64,000 nucleotides of DNA from Blepharisma japonicum (lineage: Eukaryota; Ciliophora; Heterotrichea; Heterotrichida; Blepharismidae): contig CATKHK010000027.1 of assembly GCA_949751835.1 (NCBI GenBank), positions 310,001 through 374,000 on the forward strand, given 5' to 3'. Both the position numbers and the translations under genes were made by a program. Position 1 is the stretch's first letter. Each line of letters opens with the position of its first letter. Below the pieces are notes generated by a model. The model was given only the letters and a program-made list of their open reading frames with translations. It made no database searches and had not been told where the DNA came from. Positions 2,487-20,037 of the stretch are shown in pieces.

Positions 2487-2699
2487 TTATTTCTTAATAG
2501 AACGTATCAATATGCTATGCATAAATTTTATAGATAGCAAGCTAAACTAATAATTGTAAAAATATAAAGCTAATTAAGTGTCCTTATAGTTTTTTGCTTT
2601 AAATCTGCAACCTTCTTGATGATAATTTAATATAAATTCCATAATCACTTCATACTCACACTTTCTCAATAATTTTTCTCTTTCATATGTTTAAAATTT

Positions 2700-4688
2700 A
2701 TGCAAATGGAACTCAAAAAATCAAAAACTTTAAAGTCAACTCGTCCACCTTCTGCCGGCAAAAACACGATGGAAGTTATAGCTCCCCGCCAATCCACTGC
2801 TGAGTCTCAGCGTTCTCGTAAAACTCCTACCCGTAAACTTGAAAGGGTTTCCTCAGGTTCTACCTCTCCCAGCACCTCTTTGACTGATTTTTCTTCAATA
2901 CGTCCCTCTACTCTTGACTCCACCGAAAGATCTCGTCTAGAACTCTTAGCCACAAATCCTCTAAAAGCTTCTACAAACATCCAAGAGCTTTCGCAAAGAT
3001 CCCTAGAGCTTCAAGAAATGCTGCGAGAAAAAGAGGAGCAAATGAAACAAATCCAATCCATTGTTAGCCAAATGCAAGAAAAATCTGAATTATTTGAGGA
3101 AGAAGAGAGCTATGAGCAAGTAATGGACGCGTGAAGAGACATAAATGACGATGGAAAAGAAAAAGCTAGACAAAAAAGGATCAAAGAGATTGAAGATTTC
3201 ACTGAAAGCTTGAAAAGTCAAAGGGACGAGGAGGGAAATAAAATTGTGGAGTTACCAGAAGATTATGAAGAAATTTTGCAAACAGCGACAGATCATGCTG
3301 TGCTAGCGAAAAAGGCGAATCAAGAAGAAGAAAAAGTGGATTGGATACAGGTGTATGAAGCAAAGCATGCAAAGGAAAAAGAAGATGCTAAATATAGACA
3401 AAAAATGGAAAGAATTAAACAATTAGATTTGGTAATTGCTGAGAAAGAAAAGCAATTAAGAGATATCAGAAGTAGGGACTCGGAAAGTGATAGGAGAAGT
3501 GTTGATAGTAAAGAATCTGTTTTTATTACTCGTCCTGGAGCAAAAAGTCAAGCTCATTCTGTTTCTTCTATTAGCACTCGTGCACAGCCCAAGGATAAGA
3601 TTCTTAAAAATATAGAAGCAGCTTCAAACTATAAAGGACATTATTCTTTAATCGATAGGCTTGGAAATAGCGATAAAACCAAGCTAGATCGACTTTTGCA
3701 AGAAGCAGATTCAAAAGCAATACAAGAATATACAGGAATTATATCAAACGATACCTCCAAAAGATTAGAAGAAATTGATGCTGCACTCAGAAACATGGTC
3801 CCACAAAGTGATTGGGAATCAAGGTCAATCTCAAATGGAGCCTCCTCTGAGATGAGCTCCAAAAAATCTTCAACTGCTTCTAAAAAATCCAAAGCAAAAC
3901 CAGCAGAGCCAGCAATTTTAGAAGAACAAGAAAGAAGAAATGACTATCAAAGGATAAAAGAAATCAATAAATCTTTGGCTGAACTAAATATGAGACCCCA
4001 AAGAGCTTTGACTGAAGAAGAGCTCCAGAGCTTAGTTCTTGATGCTACACTATCTATTGAAAGCAGCAATAGAGAAATCCAAAAAGCAATTTTATATGAT
4101 AACTCCTCAATGCTGGATGAAGCTAAAGATATAATCAAAAAATTAGAAAACTTGGAAAGCCTTGATGTTGGACAACTAAATAATTTACTAGGTGATGCTG
4201 AAAATGCAGTAGAAAAATATGAAAAAGCAGTTGAATTACAAGAAAAGGTAATTGAAAATGAGCCTCAATTTGTGCAGGCTAGACAAACATTGGAGCAGTT
4301 TATGAAAGAATGTGATGAAAAAAAGGCTGAACTGGAAAATGCATTAGAAAAATTAAATAAAATGGATAGTCGGATTCAGAAAGAACTCAAAGCTTGCCAA
4401 GATAGCGAAGAACTTGAAAAACTAGCTGAAATGGAAAAAATATATGTTCCTGAAGATAAGCAGTTGTCAATTGAAGAAATAGATCAAGAAATTGAAGCAA
4501 AAGTTATGAACAATTATAATCAGCCACAATCAAATTTTAGTGATCTGGCTGATATTAATCCAGAAAATTATCCAACTTTATACTATATGTATGAAAAAGT
4601 TCTTCAAGAGCCAGATGGCGAAAAACTTGTGAATCAATTGGCAAATAATGATGAATCTCATAATGATGAAGAAAAGAATGATGAATAA
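2700..4688 (+). CDS. coiled-coil protein, 662 aa (possibly FSIP1-like C-terminal region)
   Basis: One reading frame interrupted by a single TGA at 3132-3134, read as Trp. The N-terminal ~100 residues are Ser/Thr/Pro-rich and basic. The rest is strongly charged with long predicted coiled coils (about residues 100-160, 190-260 and 380-560). A C-terminal block (LEKLNKMDSRIQKELKACQ) faintly recalls the fibrous-sheath-interacting protein region, but this is only an impression. The C-terminus is acidic. It is probably a structural or cytoskeletal protein. ATG at 2700, TAA at 4686-4688. Confidence 0.75.
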
Positions 4689-5261
4689 TAAAGAAATTAA
4701 TTTGAAGAAAATGCTAAAAATAAATATCATTGATTTCATACATTATTAATCTTCAGTGCATAATATTTTCACTTAATTCTTCACAAATCTTTTCGCTTCT
4801 TGCTTTATGTATATTAAAAAAAGCAGAAATAGTAAGTAGCAATTTTTATATGGTCTATATTAAATAATCAAAATCAAAGCCAAAAGAGAAAAAAGGAAAA
4901 AAGATAGGCAAATGGTAAAAGGATTTCCAGATTTTAGCATTTTCTTTAAACTAATCTTCAATTTAGTATTTAAATAATCTTATTGCCTATTATGAAATTT
5001 AACCTAACCTAAATTAAAATTCAGTTAGTATTAATCTGATAAGTAAAGAGATCCCTGCATTTATCAGTTTAAAGATTAAAGTTTATTTTATTATTAATAT
5101 TACTATCTATTTATCTATCTCAAACTAATTTATATTTTAAATATATTTTAAGTCAAAATGAATTTCACAAACCTATCAAGTCTAAATTTACTGATAAATT
5201 GTAATATTCGACAAAAAACTTGTAAATTCTCTTGATTGGCCAAAATATTGATAGAAATAAA
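4689..5261. other. intergenic, 573 nt
   Basis: AT-rich spacer with no convincing coding frame. It holds a purine run near 4880-4905, two CCTAA units near 5001-5012 that are too short to be telomeric, and a degenerate TATC/TATT stretch near 5100-5120. The promoter of the kelch gene presumably lies here, but no motif can be assigned. Confidence 0.6.
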
Positions 5262-6779
5262 ATGGGTTCATGCATTTCAAAACATGATAATCAAAGCAAG
5301 AATGTTTCAATGCTGCCTGTTGTGCAACAAATTCCAGAATTTTATTATTTGTCCCGACTAAGCAAAGAGATCCTCCACATAAAGCCGCAAGCAATAACTA
5401 AGTATGCGCTTGACAAAAAATTAAAAATTTATGAAGATTCTGCAGTAGGGTATCTTTCAGACAATCAATTGATGGTTATTGGTGGAACCGATAAAACTGG
5501 CTGTTTAGTTAATAATGCTTATATAATAGATTTAGGCAGCAAGAAAGCCTCAGTTATTTCGAAATTGCCTTTGGGATCAAAGGGAGGGTACATATTTCAA
5601 TATAACAAATATGTCTATTATATTGATGGGCTGATTGAAGGAGAAAACGAAGATTCTAATCTAATGGTAGAGCCTGCTCCTCTTATGAGATATAGCATAG
5701 ATGATAATTGTTGGGAATACTATGCCAACCGTGAGCCTGCAGTTAAGAAGGAAATAAAAAGATTTTTAACAAAAAAAGTCACTGAAAGATATGATGATTA
5801 TGAGACTGAAAAAATTCATATCAGAGAAATTTCATACACTGATCTAATCAATTCAGGTATCTTTTTGTATAATGGGAAAATTTATTTCCTAGGTGGGCAG
5901 AGAATTAATACAATAGGAAAATTAAAATCAACTAAAAAGATTTACTCTTTGGATTGTGACTCTCTGGAATTTAAAATTGAACCATGCAGAATGCCTATAA
6001 AAGTAATTAATCCTCTATGCGCAGTTCGCTCCAATAATGTTGTTATAACTGGAGGCATTAATCCAATTGATAATAAACCGAACTATCAAGCTTACACTTT
6101 GGTTTTCGCTGAAAAATTGGAATTTAAAAGATTGGAATCAATAAAAGACCCTCTTTCAGAAAAATATCCTCCTCTAACAACAAAGGAAGCTTCACTATTT
6201 TTTTCATATCCAAAAGTAGTTTATATAGATAATGGCCTGTTAAAATGGACTCAAAAAGATATTGAAGAAATCTCATCAAAAGCAATTGTCAATCCCGATA
6301 AAAAAATAGAAATTTCAGAAATGAAAGCTGAAGAAAAAGATCCAGTAAAATATCACCATAAAATTTCCACAGCTCTTCCTCTTGAAAAGCATAGTAGCTT
6401 CGATAAAGAAGAGGGATCGCCAAGCTCAAGTGAGTATAATGAAGAGCCTTTGGTGGAGCCTATTGAAAAAAATCATAGAATCCAAACAGAAAATCCAAAT
6501 GCAATTCATGATAGAATTATTGAAAAAAATAATTTGGTTTATGAAGAAATAGGACCTGGAGGGTTGAAAAGGTTAATTAGAGGCATGACGTTTGATGTAG
6601 ATGAGTTTAAGAGGAGACTTACAATTATAGAAGAAGAAAAAATGAAGAAAAAAGAAATGGCAATGCATAAAAATACAGGGTTCAAAGATTGAATTGTTGG
6701 GGAAAAAATTGAGGGAGAAGAACAGCCTGAAATAAGAAAAAGGAATGAAGAAAATAAAATTGTGAGAGATCGAGCGTAG
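5262..6779 (+). CDS. kelch-like repeat protein with N-myristoylation signal, 505 aa
   Basis: The first ATG of the frame (5262) gives MGSCISKH, a classic N-myristoylation signal (Gly2) with a palmitoylatable Cys4, so the protein is likely membrane-anchored. The body has kelch-like blades: MVIGGTDKTG, YIFQYNKYVYYIDGLIEG, GIFLYNGKIYFLGGQ and NNVVITGGINP, roughly residues 60-330. The C-terminal third is charged and ends in a helical block containing LKRLIRGMTFDVDEFKRR. The TGA at 6690-6692 is read as Trp and the frame continues 28 codons to TAG 6777-6779. A TTG 10 codons upstream is open but is not a plausible start. Ligand or partner unknown. Confidence 0.8.
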
Positions 6780-15377: not shown

Positions 15378-17201
15378 TTACATTAAGGAGCAGCTGTTAC
15401 AGCTGGATTTTCCGAATTTTTCTTCGTCAAGAGATGATATAAACGTTGACCTGGAAATTGCGCTTGTGACATGGTTTAAATCTTGTTCTTTTGCTCCTAC
15501 ATGATCTGATAAGCATGCGTAGAGTACAGGGTCAGCTATAACTTTGTTGTAAAATTCTGAAAATACAACAGAATCGTTCGTGCTTGAAATCAGGGCTTTC
15601 ATTTGTGTGTATATTTGCTCTGCTTTTTGCTTAAGCAAAGGGTCGTAGCATTCTCCTAATGCTTCGATATATGGAGAAAGCAGATTTTGGGTTAAAAGAT
15701 TTAGCTCGTGCTCATGAAGAATTCCGGTATGATTTGAATCGTAAGAGTCAAAACAAAGTTTAAGCTTGTCACTGAAGGTTCCTTTGCTTAAAACTGATAT
15801 GCAGATTGTGAATTCTCTGAAGTCAAGATACCCTGAGCGGTCTTCATCGAATTGGTCAAATAATGATTCTGCGCTTTCGGCGAGACCAGGAACTAAATTT
15901 TGAACCAGTCTTACGAATTCAGGCTTCGCAAGGCCAATATCTCCGCCTCCATACTTTTCCACCTCTCTTTGGATAGTGTCAGGCAGAAAAACAGTTCCTC
16001 TTCTTTTTACATTTATATTCGGTTTTTCTGGCTCTTTCCTTTTTTGCTCTATCATTTTCGTAAATTCGCTTTTTAAAATATCGATTTCTTCTTTACTGAA
16101 ATTTGAGCAATTTTCCAGTTTCTTTTCTAAAATTCTTTCACTTTTTTGCCACTGTTTGGCCCTGTAGTCTCTTGCTCCTCCTCGGAGTCTTCTGACTCGA
16201 ACTTCTGTGATTTCTTTCATTAAATCGTCATAAATTAAGCTTAGTTGAGGAGCGATTCTTTGTCCAGCCATCTGTTGAAGAATTTTTAAAGGGTGTTCAC
16301 CTTTCTTGACATTTCTTTCAAAAATTGAGACAATGCTTACTACGCCTCGTATCAGAGCAATTGAGCCTTCAGAAGCTAGCCTGTCCCATAAAAATACAAG
16401 ACTTTCTAAATCTACTGTATTTACAAACATTTGAATAAGAGGCTGCATAGAAAAGAAATCAGAAAATTCATGTGAAGTTAAGCATGAAGATTTCATTCCA
16501 GGAACTAAATGGTCAAGCAAGCCTGCAATTACAGTTGACTCAATAAAAAATCCATTTAATGAATTTCCTCTCTTAGCACCATTATAAAAATCAGGTAAAA
16601 GCCATTTTTCAATTAAATATGAGAGCATTCAAAATGCTGAATTGTGGTCAAGAAAAACCAGTAGCCACATACAAATATAATTCATTCCTTGACAATATCC
16701 AACTTGAGGGTTCCTTGATGTATAAGCTTTGAGAACTTTATAAATATCTTCCCTATATGAACCACCGATGATTCTTAGCAATAATTCATGAATTTCTCAA
16801 TTAAATACTCCTGGGTCTGATCTGCCTGTTGTGACATCTTTAGTAATGATTTCTTCATCATCTGTGGAGAGTGGGAGAATTAAATAAGTGTTTATATCCC
16901 CAGGTTGGTTTTCCATAAAACCTCAGGCGCCACTGCTTCTCATCCAAGACTCTCCTCTTTTGGTTAGCTGGCACCATCTGATGCCTTCTCTCTCAATAAA
17001 ACCTTCTAAAGAAACAATTAGTGAATGGCAGCCTGTACATACTTCATATTCCCCTTTACCTTCTTCACAAGAGTATATCAAAGCTTTATTTGCTGCACAC
17101 TGATGGCAAAATCACTCTTTGCAGATTTTGCATGCAATTTGGTTATCGTTTTCTGACTGACAATTAAAGCACTTTCCCTTTTCTTCTTCTATAACTTCCA
17201 T
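15378..17201 (-). CDS. FYVE-like zinc finger / TBC Rab-GAP / EF-hand protein, 607 aa
   Basis: Start ATG at 17201 (MEVIEEEKGKCFNC). Residues 11-58 carry Cys pairs C11xxC14, C24xxC27, C32xxC35 and C55xxC58 in FYVE-like spacing, but without the basic RHHCR lipid-binding motif. A TBC domain follows (about 75-330), with NPQVGYCQGMNYIC containing the glutamine finger and a weakly conserved arginine-finger segment (EIHELLLR). EF-hands are near residues 470-540 (FDEDRSGYLDFREF, YDSNHTGILHEHEL). Four in-frame TGAs serve as Trp. TBC plus EF-hands recalls TBC1D8/9. Likely a Rab GTPase-activating protein with possible Ca2+ control. Confidence 0.9.
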
Positions 17202-17259
17202 TTATGCCAAGTCTCTATATATAATTTCAAATTAAAAGAATCAATTTACTTAAATAGTA

Positions 17260-18007
17260 ATGCAAACAAATTTTGGAAGATTAGATTTATGATATAAATA
17301 AATGCCAATACTTTTTAATATGGGTAGAAAGGTTTGCATTCTTTAAGTCTGCTCTATTGTGAAACAGAGATTATAAAGAGTTTAATAAACACGCAGATAA
17401 AGATCTATAAACTCAAGAAATTTTAGATTAAATGGATGCTCTTAATGAGGAAATCAGACTCATGGAAGAAAAGCTAGAAAAAGAAATTGCTGACGAGTAA
17501 GAGAAGAGAGTGAGAAAGGTTATGGGTGAAACGAGGATGAGGGATAATCGAAGAAATGAGGCTATGATTACAGGAGCTAGAAAGAAGAACCTTGAGAAGG
17601 CAAGCTAAGGATTGGTTAACCTAGTCTCATTTGAAATGAAATCAAGTGAAAGAGAAAATTTAAGTGAAGCTACATCAGTCAGAGCCATAGATTTTGGGGC
17701 AGACACTAAAGAGAGACAGGAGGAGAATCGAAAAAAATGAAATTCAAAAAAACTTAACAATTCAAGAAAAGGTATCGGATCAGTAAGAATTGAGAAAGAT
17801 TGAGGGAAAAGCTTAGAAAATGGCAAGGAAGAAGAGTCAAGGACTAGAGATGAAGATGGGTACTCTAAGCAGATTTTTCCCACATGCTTTTGATCAAAAT
17901 GGCACAGCATTGAGCTATGCAGGGAATCAATGAAAAGAGGAATTAGAGATGAGGAGATAATACACAAAGAATTGTTACAAGTAATGGTGGTGAATAAAAA
18001 TCTATAA
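17260..18007 (+). CDS. putative gene with several in-frame UAA codons, function unknown
   Basis: A purine-rich, coding-like frame in which UAA recurs at 17408, 17429, 17498 and 17606 (and at 17299 if the ATG at 17260 is the start; the ATG at 17302 is the alternative), with no UAG and four UGAs. Read with UAA as Gln it gives natural coiled-coil sequence, e.g. TQEILD-x-MDALNEEIRLME and EKEIADE-x-EKRVRKVMGE. The first ~24 codons join the rest only if a 16-nt GT..AG segment (17332-17347) is removed. The final 132 codons before TAA 18005-18007 are open. It could be a recoded gene, a decaying gene, or a chance run. No homology recognised. Confidence 0.4.
17332..17347 (+). other. candidate 16-nt intron in the UAA-containing frame
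   Basis: The segment GTTTGCATTCTTTAAG has GT..AG ends and the 16-nt length used elsewhere, and its removal joins MGRK to SALLWNRDYKEFNKH in frame. Unlike the confident introns here, it has no A at position 10 or 11 and starts GTTT, so support is weak. Confidence 0.35.
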
Positions 18008-18219
18008 ATGAGCGATGCTAATAATATATAAATTAATAAAAATTAGTATAATCATTGCTGTGATTTAGAAAATAATATTAATTTTGAATTAAATTTTAAG
18101 AAGATTAATTTTCAATTGAAAAAGGTGAGAATTGCTGGTTTCGGGATCATTATTTCGCAATCCAGTTACAAGAATGGCGAAGACCATAAATAATTACGTA
18201 ATGGTAATTCGCTATAAAA

Positions 18220-20037
18220 ATGACCGAAAAGCTGGCCCAAATAAGAGAACTTATGAGTTCTGAAGGCCTTGACGCTTATTTTCTCCCGAATAACGATTTT
18301 CATAATGTAATGCATAACCAGAACGAAAGCTTATGTGATCACGATAAGCGAATGGCATTCATATCTGGATTCCAAGGCTCAAATGGGCAAATTTTAATTA
18401 CAAAAGAGCATGCTTTACTTTGGACTGATGGAAGGTTCTGAAAAACCGTAAAATTTATTTAGGCTGAAGAGGAGCTCCATCCTGGATGGGAGATTATGAA
18501 GATGGCAATAGGCTACCCTACTTATTGTGATTGAATTATACACCATTTACCATCCGGAAGTGTGGTCGGCTACGATCCTGCTTTAATATGTGCGGAAAGT
18601 GTATTAGCAAGAACGCAATATTTTGAAGATAAAGGATTCGCTTTTAAGCCACTTACTAAAAATCTCGTCAATTCTATTTGGACAGACAGGCCAAAAATGC
18701 CAGACGAGAAGCTTTTTATTCATGAACTCAGATATGCAGGAATAACAGCTGAACAGAAGATATTTATGGTCCTAAACCAACTACATAAACTTGGTTCTAA
18801 TTATCTCTTCACTCCAGTTTTAGATGAAATAGCCTGGACACTTAATTTGAGGGGAAAAGATATCCAATATAATCCATTATTTTTCTCATTTTTACTACTT
18901 CATGCCACATATCCCAGCTTCCAAGCAATCTTATTTGTTGACCAGGAAAAGGTCAATGGGATTCAAGAATACTTGGACCAAAACCATATAGAGATCCAGC
19001 CCTATGAGTCAGCTTGGGATTATCTGAATAAAATTGAAGAAAGTGTGATAATTGATAAAAATGAATTAAATTACAGCTTTTATAAGAATATCAAGACCCC
19101 AGTTCATTACTCTGGGCTTATTGCAAAAATCAAAGTGATAAAAAATCCAAGAGAAATGCAAGGATTCAGAGAAAGTCATATAAGAGACGGAGTTGCCATA
19201 TCTAAGTACATATCCTGGATGAAAAGTCAGCTGGATGCTGGAGCTGATCTAACGGAATGGTCTTCTGTTGAAAAATTAGACGAATTTAGAGCTTCAGAAG
19301 AGCTTAACGCTGGACTTTCTTTTGAAAATATTTCTTCAGTAGGGCCAAACTCAGCTATAATCCATTATGCTCCTACCCAAGAAACTGCAGCAAAAATAAC
19401 CAAAGATCAAATTTATCTTCTTGACTCTGGAGGACAATATTTAGATGGAACCATTGATACTACTCGAACATGGCATTTTGGAGAGCCTACAGACTGGGAA
19501 AAAGAGTGCTATACAAGAGTGCTTCTCGGAAACTTAGATGTCGAGCGACTTATTTGGCCTGAATACAGCAGAATAAGTGGCAACGAAGTCGACATGATGG
19601 CGAGAAAATGGCTATGGGATATAGGCCTTGATTATCCTCATGCAACTGGGCATGGTGTTGGGTATTTCTTAAATGTTCATGAAGGCCCACATCGAATGTG
19701 TAAAGGAAGCACTGAGCCGTTTGAAGTAGGAATGAATATAACAAATGAGCCAGGATACTATGAAGAAAGCCATTTTGGAGTAAGGGTTGAAAATATTCTT
19801 TTAGTGGTCATGCATCCGTCTTTTCCAGGATTTTTAGGCTTTGAAAACGTGACTATGGTCCCTTATGATAAAAATTTGCTGGATTTCAAATTGTTGTCAC
19901 ATAGAGACATTACGTACATTGATGCGTATCATAACAAAATTTGGAGAAATTTGAGTTCGATTTTGGAAAATAGAGGAGAAAACATAGCTTTAGAATGGTT
20001 GAGGGAAGCGACGTCGCCAATAAATCGTAGTGATTAA
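18220..20037 (+). CDS. XPNPEP1: X-Pro aminopeptidase (aminopeptidase P), 595 aa
   Basis: Removes N-terminal residues preceding proline; M24 pita-bread metalloenzyme. Exons 18220-18306, 18322-18447 and 18463-20037. The dinuclear metal ligands are all visible: Asp in LLDSGGQYLDG, Asp in GTIDTTRT, His in GHGVGYFLNVHEGP, Glu in TNEPGYYEE and Glu in VRVENILL. Two N-terminal creatinase-like domains precede the catalytic domain, and the length matches cytosolic XPNPEP1 (623 aa in human). Two TGAs (18439-18441 and one near 18531) are Trp. Two 15-nt introns interrupt it, one of which keeps the frame open. Confidence 0.95.
18307..18321 (+). other. frame-preserving 15-nt intron in XPNPEP (inferred)
   Basis: GTAATGCATAACCAG has GT..AG ends, length 15 and A at position 10. 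It lies in phase 0 and has no stop, so an ORF caller would translate it as VMHNQ. Removing it makes NDFHN-NESLCDHDKRMAF the same length as the human DAHQSEYIAPCDCRRAF segment, with D, H, E, D, R, A and F in register. Confidence 0.75.
18448..18462 (+). other. 15-nt intron in XPNPEP
   Basis: GTAAAATTTATTTAG, phase 0, with A at position 10 and an in-frame TAG. Removal joins FWKT to AEEELHPGWE, restoring the conserved segment after WTDGRF. Confidence 0.95.

Follow-up and report, generated by a model that had tools for sequence, protein, structure and literature searches.

A coding-like frame with four in-frame TAA codons in Blepharisma japonicum, probably a gene decaying between two intact neighbours

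A RabGAP-TBC gene (minus strand) and an M24 peptidase gene (plus strand) of the Blepharisma japonicum genome are separated by a gap of ~1 kb that holds a frame with four in-frame TAA codons, and this stretch is probably a single-copy gene that is decaying between two intact genes. Decay is favoured because a native-like coding signal is broken by the four TAAs, has no in-frame ATG ahead of the first of them, fades at its end and has no second copy. It is also supported by the existence of a clear ABC-transporter relic in this genome and by the rarity of UAA and UAG in the best-scoring kinase matches. The window, i.e. the whole stretch of 64,000 nucleotides that was analysed, is C27:310001-374000; the genome searched was the assembly of 224 contigs (45.2 Mb). 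Unless stated otherwise, positions are those of the window and features lie on the plus strand.

Neighbouring genes and the TAA-bearing frame

Both neighbours are readily recognised. The gene at 15381..17201 (minus strand) is open and encodes a RabGAP-TBC protein with an EF-hand (PF00566, E 5.2e-25), and the peptidase gene at 18220..20037 (plus strand) belongs to family M24 (PF00557 on 18463-20034, E 3.3e-43). The latter is interrupted by a 15-nt intron, GTAAAATTTATTTAG (18448-18462, plus strand), that contains an in-frame TAG; this TAG could pass for a recoded glutamine codon. For B. stoltei, UGA = Trp and 15-nt introns are described in the accessible part of PMC9942806, and the UGA = Trp and 15-nt introns seen here agree with Blepharisma.

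In the gap, the first-pass annotation had reported TAAs at 17408, 17429, 17498 and 17606 without TAG, in a frame that also uses UGA, and a further TAA at 17299. The letters, when read again, agree for the first four, all of which lie in frame mod 3 = 2. This frame has no TAG between those at 17282 and 18044 and is closed by the TAA at 18005..18007; four UGA codons, read as Trp, are found in 17360-18004. The TAA at 17299 is indeed present, but it sits in a different frame, mod 3 = 1, apart from the other four. The encoded protein is rich in Glu, Lys and Arg and is probably a coiled coil.

The coding character of the frame was assessed with a codon model trained on 165 long ORFs, minus the ones overlapping the frame, from 51 sequences with 356,180 bases. 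The region 17348-18004 (215 codons plus the four stops) scored 0.20 bits per codon, higher than 72.7% of the gene chunks (n = 264) and 99.92% of the shadow-frame chunks (n = 1320). One of the six frames scores well, and does so in each half of the region. A Markov model gave 32.4 bits for the claimed frame over 17348-17720, versus -15.9 and -13.3 for other frames. Because the codon score beats chance frames and the Markov model agrees, 17348-18004 is, or was, coding sequence, and the coding-like frame of the first reading is upheld, most clearly over 17348-17720. Codon usage is native and its bias little eroded.

A search for homologues had been suggested as a check on the frame, and it returned no relative in the own genome, in Pfam or in the PDB. 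The own assembly was the eukaryote genome covered; in it, the frame protein had a single match apart from its own locus (26%, E 0.418), and no second DNA copy of the frame was present. The top Pfam match, PF10459 (E 0.037), fails the family cut-off, and the best PDB matches (E 0.035 and 0.41) are unconvincing. Phages and plasmids gave zero matches to the frame, and viral contigs yielded 23 pattern stretches with no relative among them. A single-sequence fold model of the protein has a mean pLDDT of 67.2 with a long helix at 2-99, and a fold search with this model gave two matches, the better one at E 7.8.

Start, introns and the fading 3' end

Frame mod 3 = 2 has no ATG between the TAG at 17282 and the first TAA at 17408. 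Joining the ATG at 17260 to the claimed frame requires the 16-nt string at 17332..17347, GTTTGCATTCTTTAAG (plus strand), to be an intron. The putative first exon (17260..17331, plus strand, frame mod 3 = 1) is doubtful and contains the TAA at 17299, and the candidate intron is atypical in having neither GTA nor A10. Inferred 15-nt introns have A10 in 17/17 and a GTA start in 16/17 cases, inferred 16-nt introns A10 in 4/7 and a GTA start in 6/7. The junction had been described as weak, and it does lack both features; given the 4/7 among 16-nt introns, however, it is atypical rather than impossible.

Tiny introns as the origin of the TAAs were considered and found no support, since no 15-nt intron of the usual form spans them. 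Between 17201 and 18222 there is neither a 15-nt GT-N7-A-N3-AG nor a 16-nt GT-N7-A-N4-AG string. Two strings of 16 nt with A11 do occur (17772 and 17783), with no reported TAA inside them. For the TAA at 17498, there are overlapping GT..AG strings that have A at -6 and measure 14, 18 and 22 nt; over all lengths from 13 to 30 nt, none with A at -6 overlaps the other three in-frame TAAs. As expected of a pseudogene, the coding-like frame has nonsense codons that introns of the usual form leave in place.

The frame had also been taken as a single natural one up to 18007, and this is not upheld; the claimed frame is probably not whole. A Viterbi path with stop/switch penalties of 4/6 outlines the relic coding frame (mod 3 = 2, with the TAAs at 17408, 17429, 17498 and 17606) at 17361..17875 on the plus strand, and the outline is the same with TAA free; even with TAA unpenalised, the path stops at 17875, 130 bases short of the claimed stop. 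At penalties of 6/8 and 8/10 just 17607-17875 is kept and the TAA-bearing part is called non-coding. Counted from 17852, the first 20 codons rank in the lowest 1.1% of genuine blocks (n = 3752), the first 30 in the lowest 4.5% (n = 2471) and the first 35 in the lowest 10.6% (n = 2106).

As the claimed frame fades at 17876..17957 (plus strand), frame mod 3 = 0 scores better at first. The blocks 17858 and 17894 (17858-17929) favour mod 3 = 0 on codon and Markov scores, block 17930 (17930-17965) is mixed, and the low-penalty Viterbi path runs in mod 3 = 0 at 17876-17948, which suggests a frame slip near 17876. An open 47-residue piece in mod 3 = 0 extends over 17817..17957 (plus strand) and has no relative in the own genome, the PDB or Pfam; in its early part, block 17822-17857, the claimed frame is far ahead. 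Over 17721-17957 as a whole the measures split, with codon scores of 8.4 for the claimed frame versus 12.2 for mod 3 = 0 and Markov scores of 4.3 versus 2.1. A slip at ~17720, which would add the TAA at 17784 and the TAG at 17814 (mod 3 = 0) to the gene, is not favoured, because the claimed frame is backed by 17822-17857 and a slip first appears in the Viterbi path at 17876; therefore, a UAG within the gene is not claimed.

UAA and UAG elsewhere in the genome

Among the best 134 of 1185 kinase candidates, 10 scored rows contained 3 TAA and 8 TAG, and these 11 may be intronic; sense UAA or UAG in many conserved genes, as in a Condylostoma-type code, was not seen in this set. In the 356 kb sampled, 79 TAA and 11 TAG lie outside intron-like strings, a count that includes the four TAAs at 17408-17606. 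A segment scan kept 204 segments, of which 68 had stops; 45 of them were listed and 14 of these were examined as protein. By eye, 11 of the 14 were gene ends running on into the next gene, one was intron-shifted and two (L023 and L051) were ambiguous. Flanked stops were found at 62 sites, 11 of them within intron-like strings; 35 of the other 51 were checked, and 22 fall in an ORF of at least 100 codons in some frame. In the stretch L033, two near-identical sequences ~2.2 kb apart (~6178 and ~8380) each have a weakly coding-like frame, interrupted by identical TAAs.

The search for a suppressor tRNA was partial. No stop-anticodon tRNA was among the 34 tRNAs in 30 loci that were read (63 scored of 2483 candidates), and ARAGORN called no tRNA in the window or in the stretches L033-L052. 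The loop-pattern search addressed UUA and gave 14 matches versus 66 for the control; the single match checked in context is no tRNA. The tRNA-Gln(UUG) has five identical copies and one degenerate relative in the genome. This degenerate copy, L054 (C82:83930-84010), is 85% identical, has an anticodon arm that by eye is unpaired and was not called by ARAGORN. Assays cited in the accessible part of PMC4967479 suggest that B. japonicum eRF1 recognises all three stops, and the titles and abstract openings of the papers listed in literature searches gave no report of sense UAA in Blepharisma.

Decay and the alternatives

If the gene is decaying, a single-copy gene for a Glu/Lys/Arg-rich protein would be wearing away in place within a heterotrich genome. 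The TAAs would be ordinary point mutations of several different codons, the 5' start may have been lost or shifted, and the 3' end may have slipped or been worn away; UAA and UAG would remain stops, so that a full-length product would not be made. Up to 12% of the runs that simulated neutral decay had at least four TAAs and no TAG. This share fell to 2.2% at most when the observed codon score was required too and, under an assumed indel rate, to 0.6% at most when a frameshift was excluded as well. TAA made up 70-74% of simulated new stops, and 16-33% of simulated new TAAs derive from Gln codons. The missing TAG is thus unremarkable. An old decay is somewhat disfavoured by a codon bias that has not eroded and a frame that is open, and a young relic is the reading that fits best. 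Against decay count the rare fit in the simulations, the uneroded codon score, a slip for which the scores point both ways and the fact that neither parent nor orthologue was found in the own genome. The locus resembles a unitary pseudogene in its coding signal with nonsense codons, its absent start and the lack of a second copy; it differs in that its ancestral gene is putative and its codon bias little eroded.

The first-pass annotation had named recoding, a foreign gene with UAR = Gln, decay and chance as possible origins. Decay is the best supported of these, while recoding and foreign origin have no support beyond the pattern and chance is unlikely. Expression of the gene with its internal UAAs decoded as Gln and with termination only near the mRNA 3' end, as in Condylostoma magnum, would agree with the native, uneroded codon score, and four TAA, zero TAG and no frameshift in the 219 codons of the claimed frame are atypical for neutral decay; Condylostoma is likewise a heterotrich (PMC4967479, accessible part). 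Such recoding is nevertheless quite improbable, as UAA and UAG are seldom seen in the best 134 of 1185 kinase candidates, no suppressor tRNA is among those read, a start codon is reached only via a doubtful intron and the coding signal fades ahead of the claimed end. A tRNA efficient on UAA is expected to affect every gene, which argues against recoding of a single one. It is also unlikely that we are dealing with a real gene whose exons are misread and whose TAAs are excised in long or atypical introns. The strings of 14, 18 and 22 nt over the TAA at 17498 and the 16-nt strings at 17772 and 17783 would fit such introns, but the 15-nt GT-N7-A-N3-AG and 16-nt GT-N7-A-N4-AG forms are missing from 17201-18222, and the TAAs at 17408, 17429 and 17606 escape every GT..AG candidate that has A at -6 and a length of 13-30 nt.

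That the stretch was never a gene and that a purine-rich strand mimics coding sequence would agree with its Glu/Lys-rich character and with the lack of a relative. The signal is confined to one of six frames, persists in both halves and lies above 99.9% of the 1320 shadow chunks; because it is frame-specific in this way, pure chance is very unlikely. Transfer from a ciliate with UAR = Gln has the TAA pattern and nothing else in its favour and is extremely improbable, given the native codon usage, the four UGA codons of 17360-18004 that are read as Trp and the open, native genes on both sides.

With Condylostoma magnum and its ambiguous code, in which UAA and UAG are Gln or stop, the locus shares internal UAA within a heterotrich frame. 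There the ambiguity is general and comes with glutamine tRNAs for UAA and UAG (PMC4967479, accessible part), whereas here one locus is concerned and the partial search found no UAA/UAG glutamine tRNA. One might predict, with little expectation of being right, that a heterotrich in which UAA and UAG are otherwise stops translates this gene through several UAAs as Gln, an ambiguous code thereby gaining a foothold in single genes. If true, the genetic code would be seen changing gene by gene. As a probable relic, the locus is a caution: where UGA is Trp, introns are tiny and genes compact, a decaying Glu/Lys-rich gene may mimic UAA = Gln, and in-frame stops should therefore be checked first against 15-nt introns, absent starts and fading frames.

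A relic of an ABCC/MRP-type ABC transporter lies on the minus strand of contig 10, at 2600-6200 of the stretch L052 (C10:152600-156200), fragmented over more than one frame and with in-frame TAA and TAG. L052 belongs to a set of 20 stretches (L033-L052) taken from fixed positions of contigs 1-10, and the Pfam comparison covered L052 and part of L037. Like the probably decaying frame in the gap, this relic (~6200-2600) is broken by in-frame stops, in its case both TAA and TAG; it differs in that it carries more stops, is spread over more than one frame and has recognisable relatives. ABC_membrane is matched at E 1e-07 with two TAAs and one TAG inside the match, and ABC_tran at E 1.1e-05 with two TAAs inside. 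The piece in the other frame matched no Pfam family when used alone, while PDB and longer Pfam queries did match; with a TAG inside, it matches MRP-type transporters at E 3e-05, and its 10 other matches in the genome are stop-free.
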